From Nakamurella flava (GTDB taxonomy: Bacteria > Actinomycetota > Actinomycetes > Mycobacteriales > Nakamurellaceae), in the NCBI RefSeq assembly GCF_005298075.1, contig NZ_SZZH01000001.1:806001-870000 (forward strand): DNA of 64,000 nt. The letters run 5' to 3'. The notes below the pieces were generated by a model that worked only from the letters and a program-made list of their open reading frames with translations, made no database searches and was not told the DNA's origin. A program made the translations under genes and the position numbers. Position 1 is the stretch's first letter, and each line of letters opens with the position of its first letter. Positions 7,190 through 20,149 of the stretch are shown here, in pieces.

Positions 7190-7195
7190 TAGCGT
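7190..7195 (+). promoter_or_regulatory. Putative -10 box (TAGCGT) of the leader-peptide transcript
   Basis: TAGCGT ends 6 nt before the ATG at 7202, so the transcript would begin at or close to the start codon of the small ORF. This is the layout reported for cysteine-responsive upstream ORFs in mycobacteria. No clear TTGAC-type -35 is visible. Confidence 0.55.
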
Positions 7196-7201
7196 GCGCC
7201 C

Positions 7202-7279
7202 ATGCTGATCGCCCACTCCACCCGCCTCGTCGGCCGCCGGTGGATCGATCTGCACCGCGTGAAGACGACTGCCTGTTGA
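7202..7279 (+). CDS. Putative cysteine-responsive leader peptide (attenuator uORF)
   Basis: A 25-codon ORF runs from ATG 7202 to TGA 7277-7279 and ends in the C-terminal stretch RRWIDLHRVKTTAC. That matches the recurring R-R-x-(I/V)-D-L-x-R-V-x-x-x-x-C pattern of small leader peptides found upstream of sulfur-related genes in actinobacteria. In those systems, ribosome stalling at the cysteine codon when Cys-tRNA is scarce changes RNA folding and switches on the downstream genes. Here the Cys codon (TGT) is the last before the stop, and a TAGCGT box lies 6 nt upstream, so translation should be leaderless. The gene it precedes, 90 bp away, is a solute-binding protein. The motif match is read directly; regulation by cysteine is inferred. 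Confidence 0.65.
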   Translation: MLIAHSTRLVGRRWIDLHRVKTTAC

Positions 7280-7369
7280 CGCCGGTCGCCGTTGCCAGCG
7301 GACTCGTTGGCTGTCGACGGCGCCCGCCCGTCCGTTCCCGCCGCGTCCCCACCCGCTAAGGATCACGCC
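7280..7369 (+). promoter_or_regulatory. Leader between uORF and solute-binding protein (possible attenuator)
   Basis: Ninety bases separate the leader stop from the ATG at 7370. They contain a possible stem GGTCGCCGT/ACGGCGCC around an inner GCCAG/TTGGC stem, and a purine-rich AAGGA ribosome site 8-9 nt before the ATG. The order short cysteine ORF, structured RNA, ribosome site is what translational attenuation requires. The folding was judged by eye only. Confidence 0.35.
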
Positions 7370-8692
7370 ATGCCCGATCAGTCGTCCCTCCCCGCGCCGT
7401 CCCCGTTGACCCGCCGCCGCTTCCTCGGCGTTTCCGGGGGCCTGGCCTCCACTCTGCTGCTGGCCGCCTGCGGTTCCAACACCGGCCGGGAGGCCGCCAC
7501 CACCGCCGGATCCGGCGGGTCGGGCGCTTCAGGGTCCAAGCCCACGCTGGCGCAGTGGTACCACCAGTACGGAGAGACCGGCACCCAGCAGGCGGCCGAG
7601 GGGTACGCCGCGGCCTACCCGGACGCCACGGTCAGCGTGCAGTGGACCCCGGGGGACTACGAGAGCAAGCTGTCGTCCTCGCTGGTCGCCGGGAACGGTC
7701 CGGACGTGTTCGAGTGGGGCAACGGCCCCTCGATCGACCAGATCCAGGGCGGCCAGGTCGCCGCCCTCGACGACCTGCTCGGCGACGCGAAGTCCGACTT
7801 CACGTCATCACTGCTGCAACGCATGTCGTACGACGGCAAGCTCTACGGCATCCCGCAGGTCATCGACATGCAGCTGCTGGTCTACCGGCCCAGCCTGCTG
7901 CAGGCGGCGGGCGTCCAGCCGCCGGAGACGTTCGACGACCTCGTCAGCGCCGCCGCCAAGCTCACCACCGGTGGCGTCAAGGGCCTGTTCGTCGGCAACG
8001 ACGGCGGCGGTGGCGTGCTCACCGGACCGACCCTGTGGTCGGTCGGCGCCGACTACCTGACGTCGGACAACAAGGTCGGCTTCGACCAGCCCGCGGTGGC
8101 CGAGGCGTTCGGTCGGCTGCACGGGCTGTTCACCAGCGGCTCGCTGCTGCTGGGCGCGCCCACCGACTGGTCGGACCCGTCCGCCATCACCCAGGGCCTG
8201 ACCGCCATGCAGTGGACCGGGCTCTGGACGCTGCCGACGCTGGCCAAGGAACTGGGCGACGACTTCGCGGTGACCGCGTGGCCGAAGTACAGCTCCTCGG
8301 TCGGCGCCCCGTCCGTGCCGATCGGGGCCTACGGCTCCGTGGTGAATGCCAAGGGCGCGAACGTGGATGCGGCCAAGGCGTACGTGAAGTGGCTGTGGGT
8401 GGACAACACCGCCGATCAGCTCGACTGGGCGCAGAGCTTCGGCTTCCACATCCCGGCCCGGCAGAGTGTCGCCGCGCAGGCCGACAAGCTCAAGACCGGG
8501 GTGGCCGCCGACGCGGTGGCCCTGGTACAGAACTCCGGCCACGCCCAGTCGCCGCTGCTGTGGACCCCGGCCTCCGGGACGGCCATGAGCGACGCGGTCA
8601 GCCGCATCATCAAGGACGGCGCCGACCCGGCCGAACAGCTCGGCCAGGTCGCCACCACCGTGCAGTCCGAGCTGCAGCGCGTCGCCGGCTGA
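7370..8692 (+). CDS. ABC importer solute-binding lipoprotein (carbohydrate-type)
   Basis: This 440-residue protein has a Tat-type twin-arginine signal (RRRFLG at 15-20) and a lipobox LAAC with Cys34 as the lipidation site. It would be exported folded and anchored to the outer face of the membrane. The mature part has the family-1 extracellular solute-binding fold: WTPGDYESKLSSSLVAGNGPDVFEWG early, YGIPQVIDMQLLVYRP, then NAKGANVDAAKAYVKWLW near the end. Two MalF/MalG-type permeases follow. Such systems usually import oligosaccharides or sugar derivatives. The leader ORF upstream hints at a sulfur-containing substrate, but the protein sequence does not show it. ATG 7370 is chosen for the AAGGA site and the position of the signal peptide. 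Confidence 0.88.
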   Translation: MPDQSSLPAPSPLTRRRFLGVSGGLASTLLLAACGSNTGREAATTAGSGGSGASGSKPTLAQWYHQYGETGTQQAAEGYAAAYPDATVSVQWTPGDYESKLSSSLVAGNGPDVFEWGNGPSIDQIQGGQVAALDDLLGDAKSDFTSSLLQRMSYDGKLYGIPQVIDMQLLVYRPSLLQAAGVQPPETFDDLVSAAAKLTTGGVKGLFVGNDGGGGVLTGPTLWSVGADYLTSDNKVGFDQPAVAEAFGRLHGLFTSGSLLLGAPTDWSDPSAITQGLTAMQWTGLWTLPTLAKELGDDFAVTAWPKYSSSVGAPSVPIGAYGSVVNAKGANVDAAKAYVKWLWVDNTADQLDWAQSFGFHIPARQSVAAQADKLKTGVAADAVALVQNSGHAQSPLLWTPASGTAMSDAVSRIIKDGADPAEQLGQVATTVQSELQRVAG

Positions 8693-8703
8693 CATCGCCG
8701 CCG

Positions 8704-9678
8704 ATGAGCGCTCCGACCCGGTCACGGCCGGTGGCCCAACGGCCACCGCTGTGGCGTCGACTGGCGGGCGACCAGAACCGCAACCTGTGGTTCTGGGCGT
8801 TTGTCGGCCCGTTCGTCGCCGGCCTGACCGTCTTCGTCTACATCCCGATCCTGTGGAGCGTCTACCTCAGCTTCTTCGACGCCCGGAACACCGTGACGCC
8901 CACCGATTTCGTGGGCTTCGGCAACTACCGCGACATGCTGACGGACCCCGCGTTCCTGTCCAGCATGGGCACGTTCATCGTGTTCGCCGCGTTCATCGTG
9001 CCGCTGACGTTCGCGGCGTCCCTGGGCCTGGCCCTGATGATTCACCGGGTCCGGCGGTTCAAGGCGTTCTTCCGGTCGGTCTACTTCCTGCCCACCGCCT
9101 GCTCGTACGTGGTCGCCGCGCTGATCTGGAAGCTGTCGATCTTCAACGGGGTCCGGTTCGGTCTGGTCAACACGGTGCTCAGCTGGTTCGGCATCGAACC
9201 GATCGCCTGGCTGTCGGTGACCCAACCACCCTGGTACTGGCTGGTTCTCGTCACCTTGCGGCTGTGGCTGCAGGTCGGCTTCTACATGATCCTGTTCCTG
9301 GCCGGGCTGCAGCGCATCCCCACCGTGCTCTACGAGGCAGCCGCGGTCGACGGCGCCGCCCCCGGCTGGCAGACGTTCCGGTACGTCACCTTCCCGCAGC
9401 TGCGGACGACGTCGGTGGCCGTACTGGTGCTGTTGCTCATCAACGCGTTCCAGGCGTTCGACGAGTTTTACAACCTGCTGGCCAACGCGGGCGCGGCGGG
9501 CAGCGGCGGCGCCTACCCGCCGTACGCCCGGCCGCCACTGGTCTACCTCTACTACGTGGCCCTGGGCAGCCAACAGGACTTCGGCCACGGCAGTGCCGGC
9601 GCGGTGCTGCTGGCCCTGGTGATCGCACTGTTCACCGTGCTGCAGGGGCGCCTGCTGCGGTTCGGACGCAACGAATGA
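8704..9678 (+). CDS. ABC importer permease, MalF/UgpA type
   Basis: This 324-residue inner-membrane protein has six predicted helices. The coupling (EAA) loop reads YEAAAVDGAAPGWQTFRYVTFPQL, which docks onto the ATPase. The N-terminal helix pattern FVGPFVAGLTVFVYIPILWSVYLSF is typical of MalF/UgpA proteins. It begins 11 bp after the binding-protein stop and is followed by the second permease. No ATP-binding subunit is encoded nearby, so a shared MsiK-type ATPase elsewhere probably serves it, as is common for actinobacterial sugar importers. Confidence 0.88.
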   Translation: MSAPTRSRPVAQRPPLWRRLAGDQNRNLWFWAFVGPFVAGLTVFVYIPILWSVYLSFFDARNTVTPTDFVGFGNYRDMLTDPAFLSSMGTFIVFAAFIVPLTFAASLGLALMIHRVRRFKAFFRSVYFLPTACSYVVAALIWKLSIFNGVRFGLVNTVLSWFGIEPIAWLSVTQPPWYWLVLVTLRLWLQVGFYMILFLAGLQRIPTVLYEAAAVDGAAPGWQTFRYVTFPQLRTTSVAVLVLLLINAFQAFDEFYNLLANAGAAGSGGAYPPYARPPLVYLYYVALGSQQDFGHGSAGAVLLALVIALFTVLQGRLLRFGRNE

Positions 9679-9694
9679 GCGGGGGAGGACGGCG

Positions 9695-10594
9695 ATGACG
9701 GCAACGGACTCGGACCGGCGGACCCCGGCAGCGGGCCGCCGCCCGCAGGCGGGCATCCGCCTCGGACGGGCCCAGCGGACCGGGCAGGCCCTGCGCTTCG
9801 TCGCCCTGCTGCTCGGCGCGGTGGTGTTCCTGGTCCCGTTCTACCTGCTGGTCCGCAACGGTCTGTCGACCAACGCCGACATCACCGCACCCACCTGGCG
9901 CCTGCTGCCCACGCAGGTGCAGTGGGGCAACGTCGGTGAACTGTTCGCCGACCCCGCCGTGCCCATGCTGCGCAGCCTGGTCAACTCGCTGCTGGTGTCC
10001 GTTGTGCAGACCACGGGCACCATCGTGCTGTCGGGGCTCGCCGGCTACGGGTTGGCCCGCATCCCGGTCCGGTACGCGGGCGTCGTGTCCGGGCTGATCG
10101 TCGCCACCCTGCTCATCCCGGCCGCGGTGACGTTCGTGCCCACCTTCGTCGTCGTCTCCAGCCTGGGCTGGGTCAGCAGCTTGCGCGGCCTCATCGTCCC
10201 CGGCCTGTTCCAGGCGCTGGCGACCTTCCTGTTCCGGCAGTACTTCCTCAACTTCCCCCGGGAACTGGAGGACGCCGGGCGCGTCGACGGGCTGAACTAC
10301 TGGGGGGTGTTCTGGCGGATCGTGCTACCGAACTCGAAGGGGTTCGTCGCTGCCGTCGCGACCATCACCTTCATCGGATCCTGGAACGCGTTCCTGTGGC
10401 CGTTGGTGATCGCGCAGGACTCGTCGTCCTGGACGGTGCAGATCGCGTTGTCGACGTTCCTGACGTCCCAGACGATCAACCTGCACGAGCTGTTCCTGGC
10501 GGCCGTCTTCTCGATCCTGCCGTTGTTGCTGATCTTCATCGGGCTCCAGCGGTTCATCGTGCAGGGCGTCGAGTCGACCGGCATCAACCGCTGA
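9695..10594 (+). CDS. ABC importer permease, MalG/UgpE type
   Basis: This 299-residue permease partners the preceding gene. Its EAA loop is ELEDAGRVDGLNYWGVFWRIVLPNSKG, the MalG form. An N-terminal FLVPFYLLVRNGLST segment and the C-terminal FIGLQRFIVQGVESTGIN are typical of the family. ATG 9695 follows a GGGGGAGGA ribosome site, 16 bp after the upstream stop. It is the last gene of the importer unit and ends 3 bp before the opposing DUF5703 gene, with no room for a separate terminator. Confidence 0.88.
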   Translation: MTATDSDRRTPAAGRRPQAGIRLGRAQRTGQALRFVALLLGAVVFLVPFYLLVRNGLSTNADITAPTWRLLPTQVQWGNVGELFADPAVPMLRSLVNSLLVSVVQTTGTIVLSGLAGYGLARIPVRYAGVVSGLIVATLLIPAAVTFVPTFVVVSSLGWVSSLRGLIVPGLFQALATFLFRQYFLNFPRELEDAGRVDGLNYWGVFWRIVLPNSKGFVAAVATITFIGSWNAFLWPLVIAQDSSSWTVQIALSTFLTSQTINLHELFLAAVFSILPLLLIFIGLQRFIVQGVESTGINR

Positions 10595-18925: not shown

Positions 18926-20149
18926 GTGCAGTCCTGGAACCCGCCCGCCATCCCGTCCGTGCCCGGCCCCGGACCGCAGCTGTGGTTGTACGACTCGTCC
19001 AGCGAAATGGTCCGCCCGACCACGCCGGGGGAGACCGCCACCCTCTACGTCTGCGGCATCACCCCCTATGACGCCACCCACCTCGGCCACGCGGCGACGT
19101 ACCTGTCGTTCGACCTGGTACAGCGGGTGTGGTTGGACGCCGGGCGCCAGGTGCACTACGTGCAGAACGTCACCGACATCGACGATCCGCTGCTGGAGCG
19201 GGCCGAGCGGGACGGCGTCGACTGGCGGGACCTCGCGGCCGAGCAGATCCAGCTCTTCCGCGACGACATGGAATGGCTGCGCATCATCCCGCCGCGCGAC
19301 TACATCGGCGCCGTCGAGGCCATGGACGAGATCAGCGCGGCCGTGGCCGACCTGATGGAGAAGGGCGCCGGCTACCGGGTGCCCGACGACGACCACCCGG
19401 ACATCTACTTCGACCTCCGCTATTCGCCGCGGTTCGGCTACGTCTCGCACTACGACAGCGACACCATGTTGGCGTTGTCCCGGGAACGCGGTGGCGACCC
19501 CGATCGCGAGGGCAAGTACGACCGGCTCGATCCGCTGCTGTGGCGGACCGCCCGGGACGGCGAACCCTCCTGGGAGTCCCCGCTGGGGGCCGGCCGCCCG
19601 GGCTGGCACGTCGAATGCGCGGTGATCGCCGGCAACCGACTGGGTTGGTCGATCGACGTGCAGGGCGGCGGCAGCGACCTGATCTTCCCGCACCACGAAT
19701 GTTCCGCCGCGCACAGTGAGACCCTCTCGGGGGAGGGACCTTTCGCCAAGCACTACACGCAGGCCGGCATGATCGGGCTGGACGGCGAGAAGATGTCTAA
19801 ATCCCGCGGCAACCTGGTGTTCGCCTCCAAGCTGCGGGCAGCCGGCGTCGATCCGATGGCCGTGCGGCTGGCCCTGCTCACCGGGCACTACCGGCAGGAC
19901 CGCGAGTGGACCGACGACGCGCTGGAGCAGGCGACCATCCGGCTGGGCGTGTGGCGCAAGGCCGCCGATCGCCGTGGCTTCGACACCACGCCGCTGCTGC
20001 AGGCCATGCGGTCCGCCCTCGCCGACGACCTCGACACCCCCACGGTGGTGGCCCGTCTCGACGCCTGGGCGATCGACGACTCCTTGGAGGGGTCCGTCGT
20101 CGCCGATGCCGTGGACGCTCTGCTGGGGATCGACCTGCGCTCCTCCTGA
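18926..20149 (+). CDS. mshC: Cysteine--1-D-myo-inosityl 2-amino-2-deoxy-glucopyranoside ligase
   Basis: MshC joins cysteine to GlcN-Ins with ATP in mycothiol synthesis. The 407-residue protein is a shortened cysteinyl-tRNA-synthetase-like enzyme. [15 protein letters not shown] (41-55) combines the zinc cysteine Cys43 with the HIGH-like motif, [11 protein letters not shown] and [16 protein letters not shown] supply further zinc ligands, and [10 protein letters not shown] is the KMSKS loop. The C-terminus lacks the anticodon-binding domain, which separates it from CysS. The start is GTG 18926. A PlsC-like gene lies on the opposite strand just past the stop, and its frame runs open right through mshC. 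The neighbourhood (uppP to mshC) is the conserved actinobacterial one. Confidence 0.95.

Follow-up and report, generated by a model that had tools for sequence, protein, structure and literature searches.

Cysteine-responsive leaderless upstream ORFs with Cys codons at their C-terminal ends precede cysA2/Msmeg_5788 and nirA/Msmeg_4527 in mycobacteria, as described in Shell 2015 (PMC4633059). Leaders of the cis_reg_atten and Ms4527A types would be expected to precede sulfur-metabolism operons, and to feature an RR-x-(V/I)-D-L-x-R core and a Cys residue in register near the stop codon. Translation attenuation is the mode of action given for the mycobacterial cys leaders in PMC13236596, which cites Canestrari 2020. 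A Rho-dependent scheme involving polyY spacers is suggested in PMC1262725, where it is termed a weak prediction. The SAM-IV riboswitch (RF00634), by comparison, senses SAM, not Cys-tRNA. The listed titles and openings of abstracts, mostly of papers outside subscription journals, contained no report of a cysteine leader located before a CUT1 importer, or of a SAM-IV riboswitch paired with a cysteine leader.

The window analysed here, a 64,000-nucleotide stretch of the Nakamurella flava genome (G000), contains a short ORF resembling these in front of a carbohydrate-type importer operon. An earlier note on this DNA had described an ORF ending with Cys as the last codon, preceded at 6 nt by TAGCGT and followed at 90 nt by a Tat-lipoprotein binding gene. 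All of this was confirmed by the sequence, in which the final codon is TGC, the stop codon is TGA and the 90 nt separate the leader stop from the ATG of the binding gene. The features of the locus are listed in Table 1, together with two examples of paired elements found elsewhere in the same genome.

Table 1 Coordinates of the leader, spacer and importer operon in the window, and of two SAM-IV/leader pairs
Feature	Position	Strand	Remarks
Putative -10 hexamer TAGCGT	7190..7195	+	Exactly 6 nt between the hexamer and the leader ATG
Cysteine-leader-like sORF	7202..7279	+	25 codons, MLIAHSTRLVGRRWIDLHRVKTTAC; C-terminal end ...RRWIDLHRVKTTAC
Predicted hairpin, its 5' end falling in the leader stop codon	7278..7332	+	-31.8 kcal/mol for 7277-7335
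C-rich, G-poor untranslated spacer	7322..7356	+	30-nt windows with 18 C/7 G and 16 C/6 G
Putative Shine-Dalgarno AAGGA	7358..7362	+	7 nt before ATG 7370; sequence
Tat-type lipoprotein, CUT1-type substrate-binding protein, 440 aa	7370..8692	+	Sequence matches, predicted structure
ABC permease 1 (UgpA/MalF type)	8704..9678	+	PF00528
ABC permease 2 (UgpE/MalG type)	9695..10594	+	PF00528
SAM-IV + leader pair, example	G000:C1:891688-891940		
SAM-IV + leader pair, example	G000:C1:909658-909936		

Like the mycobacterial upstream ORFs, the window leader is a short ORF with a C-terminal Cys, placed at the 5' end of a putatively leaderless mRNA and before an operon. Its core resembles that of the Msmeg_4527 leader through the NCBIfam Ms4527A profile, at a score under the family cut-off. 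In contrast, it carries a single Cys rather than a Cys cluster, and its target is a carbohydrate-type importer. The link of this operon to sulfur is made only through a SAM-IV riboswitch located at an ortholog of the importer in a sister species.

The sugar-transporter character of the downstream operon, also claimed earlier, is borne out by sequence matches, by PF00528 and by the predicted fold. The region spanning 7370-10594 encodes a MalE-type binding protein and two MalF/MalG-type permeases, the combination that defines CUT1 carbohydrate importers. A twin-arginine motif and a lipobox were read by eye at the N-terminus of the binding protein (SPLTRRRFLGVSGGLASTLLLAACGS). Gene calls at the locus include no ATPase gene after the permeases. 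A gene at 18926-20149 resembles mshC, the cysteine ligase of mycothiol synthesis; located approximately 8 kb from the operon, it is presumably an ordinary neighbour.

Alignment of the leader core (RRWIDLHRVKTTAC) with those of other Nakamurella cysteine leaders (RRHVDLQRVSSALC) places the Cys residues in register. The RR-x-(V/I)-D-L-x-R pattern is present, and the residues shared in register with the leaders of the genus are RR, I/V-D-L, R, V and Cys, while core positions 10-13 (KTTA) deviate from the usual SSAL. The putative -10 hexamer would give rise to a leaderless leader mRNA. The corresponding layout, in which TANNNT lies 6-8 nt before the start (the gap is 6 nt here), occurs at 4 of the 998 ATGs found on both strands of the window when the same rule is applied. 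Of 18 other Nakamurella leaders, hand-chosen as lacking a SAM-IV partner and each scored with up to four alternative starts, 13 share this layout; these 13 leaders are not independent, because nine of them precede rhodanese genes. For TAGCGT-N6-ATG as an exact string, the counts show no enrichment relative to the control, either in G006 (7 versus 6) or in G010 (3 versus 13).

Profile scores of the leader are low. The best profile matches, both with the core aligned, are NCBIfam NF042936 leader_Ms4527A (17.2 bits against a cut-off of 45; E 0.0028 for one protein) and NF042934 cis_reg_atten (15.6 bits against a cut-off of 27; E 0.0096 for one protein), so that neither curated cut-off is reached. 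When the whole genome is searched, the leader is found by cis_reg_atten at E 0.42 per genome. A genus profile derived from 25 other Nakamurella leaders, from which the window leader was left out, finds it at E 0.205 per genome, with an alignment that covers positions 1-20 of 22. With this profile it is outscored by an unrelated place of G000, inside a 432-codon frame (E 0.081), and six other leaders of the genome reach E 1.5e-4 or less. According to profile searches and a reading of the sequences, the genes behind the six stronger leaders of G000 encode an SsuA-like sulfonate ABC system, a rhodanese, an amidohydrolase with a cysteine dioxygenase, a cystine-like ABC system, a sulfotransferase-family protein and a sulfite reductase; for the SsuA-like and the cystine-like protein, the scores fall short of the curated cut-offs. 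A matrix obtained from 21 distinct leader cores assigns 15.7 to the window leader, and 25.4-42.9 to those cores when each is left out singly. The matrix was run on 822 kb of Nakamurella DNA, a redundant and leader-enriched set in which most loci had been chosen because of a leader or a SAM-IV. Apart from the window leader, scores of 15.7 or more are confined to loci so chosen (one of the places, in L201, is without SAM-IV), and the best remaining place scores 14.7. Judged by sequence alone, the window leader would hardly stand out from chance.

The binding protein is found at E 1e-30 in 8 of the 17 Nakamurella genomes, and its closest ortholog, 72% identical, belongs to a sister species (G006). 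Among the 111 regions located upstream of the binding gene and its relatives, the leader is present in the window only and is missing from the 110 others, as an earlier pattern scan had also indicated. The survey included all 8 Nakamurella matches, 22 of the 48 other matches, a further 80 loci kept of 441, and L041; four loci occur in duplicate and L041 is a paralogue (33%), which leaves 105 distinct regions in addition to that of the window. The earlier note had listed the absence of the leader before orthologous importers as an outcome that would refute its reading, and this is the outcome obtained. What stands of that claim is that a carbohydrate-type importer is preceded by a cysteine-leader-like sORF, with a link to sulfur provided by the G006 ortholog.

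This ortholog is preceded, on the correct strand, by a SAM-IV riboswitch, identified with Rfam at 78.4 bits (E 1.8e-12) and ending 23 nt before the called GTG start of the importer gene. A genus SAM-IV model, which includes this sequence among its 25 rows, finds the same element at 91.2 bits, and reveals no other SAM-IV in the 110 loci and the window. At L019, no SAM-IV was found with Rfam. One importer is hence accompanied by two unrelated sulfur sensors in two species, the leader in G000 and the riboswitch in G006.

We consider it fairly probable that the ORF at 7202-7279 senses cysteine as a leaderless leader sORF, and thereby turns the importer at 7370-10594 into a sulfur-shortage gene. 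Control by sulfur shortage is the best reading because two unrelated sulfur sensors are found on a single importer, and we rate the window leader as a variant within an established class of attenuators, on an unusual target. The low scores and the lack of a leader in the 110 other regions could also be accommodated if the ORF had arisen by chance and the SAM-IV of G006 were private to that species, and thus uninformative on the window. We regard this explanation as improbable, since it has to face the combination of core, in-register Cys, leaderless -10 and position, the confinement of matrix matches at the leader's score to leader or SAM-IV loci, and the occurrence of only 5 SAM-IV matches in the whole G006 genome. 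Once the leaderless -10 geometry, the position directly in front of an operon and the SAM-IV of the closest ortholog are considered as well, a chance origin of the leader is unlikely.

The spacer that separates the leader from the binding gene may contribute to this control. The predicted hairpin (7277-7335) has a z score of -2.45, and 5 of 200 shuffles are equally good; the whole spacer (7277-7369) folds little better than shuffles (z -1.09). Two mechanisms were considered and discarded. A classic attenuator would feature a U-run terminator, and no U-run follows the hairpin in the folds. Simple unmasking of the Shine-Dalgarno by a stalled ribosome is not favoured, as its computed exposure barely shifts with ribosome position. 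The C-rich segment is a possible Rho-loading stretch. According to the working scheme that we propose, transcription would start at or beside the leader ATG. When Cys-tRNA is ample, the ribosome would finish the leader and leave, the spacer hairpin would form, and the C-rich spacer would remain untranslated, so that importer expression would be damped, through poor initiation or through Rho-dependent termination. With Cys-tRNA in short supply, the ribosome would dwell on the terminal Cys codon, over the base of the hairpin, and expression of the importer would rise, giving induction upon sulfur starvation. As the leader closes with its Cys codon, stalling and termination would lie 3 nt apart, and the signal would be carried by how long the ribosome dwells rather than by where it does so.

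The genomic place of the importer varies among species. In G005, G007, G016 and G001, it is located between the aconitase (acnA)/TetR genes and an ABC-F gene, and in the first three of these genomes it adjoins genes encoding a PfkB kinase and a GH4-like protein. In G000, G006 and G002, the acnA...ABC-F block retains PfkB without the importer, which maps elsewhere. We infer that the block is the older place, from which the importer would have moved; this direction is favoured by the presence of PfkB beside the importer in one Kribbella locus (L066) as well. In the binding-protein tree, all Nakamurella copies group together (support 97), and those of G000 and G006, at the base, are not firmly placed. 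Of the three species whose importer lies outside the block, two have a sulfur sensor at it; in the third, G002, neither a leader nor a SAM-IV was found at the importer. In G008, the block contains a binding gene (L040 8747-10072) with a long branch (1.01), and no permeases are present in the gene calls. The GH4-like gene adjoining PfkB in G000 (L219 7465-8646) matches only the GH4 C-terminal Pfam domain, and is 29-39% identical to two relatives.

The earlier note had put forward either uptake of a sulfur-containing sugar or a sulfonate, or a cysteine-controlled sugar importer. The former would have to be deduced, as the relatives and the fold of the binding protein are those of generic oligosaccharide binders. 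The structure predicted for the binding protein has a mean pLDDT of 89. Structural matches, for which Foldseek was also run, include among those listed cello-, laminari-, sophoro-, malto- and trehalose-type binding proteins with nearly equal Z. Sequence matches are led by the acarbose/maltose binder GacH (E 3.5e-18). The sulfoquinovosyl-glycerol binding protein SmoF belongs to the same superfamily and is matched at E 8.2e-9, but it is one of 465 matched sequences and far weaker than GacH; it is not among the 50 structural matches listed, which carries no weight for its exclusion. Inspection by eye of the gene calls beside the importer did not reveal recognisable sulfosugar-degrading or sulfoglycolysis genes.

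More specific routes to a sulfur-bearing substrate were also set aside. Import of a sulfated sugar processed by a PF00884 sulfatase is not backed by any PF00884 match at E 1e-10 in G000 or G006; such matches are present in 4 of the 17 genomes. The GH4 partner of the importer in G016 was assessed as a sulfoquinovosidase, and its best solved matches are 6-phospho-glucosidases, with 0 of 14 named sulfoquinovosidase. For the PfkB of G000 as a sulfofructose kinase, 7ag6 is only one of 35 matches, and ribokinases score higher. Cys and Met are not spared in the importer proteins, and seven Nakamurella operons do not clearly differ in this respect.

A sulfur-bearing glycoside as cargo is argued from regulation only, because the folds, the lead of GacH, the GH4 and PfkB matches and the absence of PF00884 are all ordinary. 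On these grounds the imported glycoside might supply sulfur, a suggestion to which we give slightly less than an even chance. It is conceivable, although the account as a whole is doubtful, that a CUT1-type glycoside importer left a carbohydrate locus and was recruited in two Nakamurella lineages to the cysteine/SAM regulon by two different RNA sensors, importing a sulfur-bearing glycoside as a sulfur source. Alternatively, sulfur control may be real and the cargo an ordinary sugar, if the importer, having moved from the carbohydrate locus, was captured behind sulfur-responsive 5' leaders, or if carbon and sulfur have to be balanced. The association with PfkB and GH4 genes in relatives (PfkB alone in Kribbella), the lack of SAM-IV in all surveyed relatives except G006 and of the leader outside the window, fold neighbours that bind cello-, sophoro- and malto-oligosaccharides, and the missing sulfatase of G000 and G006 are all in keeping with such a cargo. 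Neutral capture, however, poorly accounts for two different sulfur sensors in two species on the same importer, and we hold this alternative to be rather unlikely. If sulfur-bearing glycosides are indeed imported, the operon would be a concrete candidate transporter for sugar-bound organic sulfur in soil actinobacteria, a type of uptake for which few importers are known to us. It would also exemplify how two sister species can have one operon under different sensors, here a peptide leader and a riboswitch.

Elsewhere in the genus, the families found behind leaders and SAM-IVs are mostly sulfur-linked. Pfam analysis of 56 genes (from 64 loci, 8 of which were dropped because no element was located, some operons with both elements being counted twice) identified class-V aminotransferases (13), Cys/Met PLP enzymes (11), rhodaneses (9), ABC permeases (9), luciferase-like proteins (3), sulfite/nitrite reductases (2), cysteine dioxygenases (2) and SDF proteins (2), with other families found 1-2 times. 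The absence of a CUT1 binding protein among the 56 genes means little, because Pfam gives no match at E 1 for the window binding protein either. SAM-IVs are often next to cysteine leaders. In the 17 Nakamurella genomes, 37 of 79 SAM-IV matches are followed on their own strand, at a distance of 30-138 nt, by a leader match, when all 139 places from the genus-profile search are counted; the genus profile at E 0.001 recovers 24 of these pairs, and the NCBIfam model 30. No leader match lies in the 200 nt upstream of any of the 79, nor downstream on the opposite strand. Such pairs are candidate two-input sensors, which would respond to both SAM and Cys-tRNA, and their genus-wide occurrence would make them a natural device of this kind. 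In two other families of the order (G017:C1, G033:C1 and G044:C1), at least five pairs were noted among 15 hand-picked riboswitches, a figure that is not a rate. A related exchange of sensors is observed at the amidohydrolase and cysteine dioxygenase operon (L030, L208), the proteins of which are 62% identical in G000 and G006: the operon has a leader without SAM-IV in G000, and a SAM-IV with a degenerate leader in G006. At L187/L188, a leader ends in Cys as the last codon, like that of the window, and the next gene resembles an SDF-family symporter. Five SAM-IVs are clustered within approximately 22 kb at L202/L203 (G002:C11:1-30000), amid genes resembling those for luciferase-type monooxygenases and ABC transporters.
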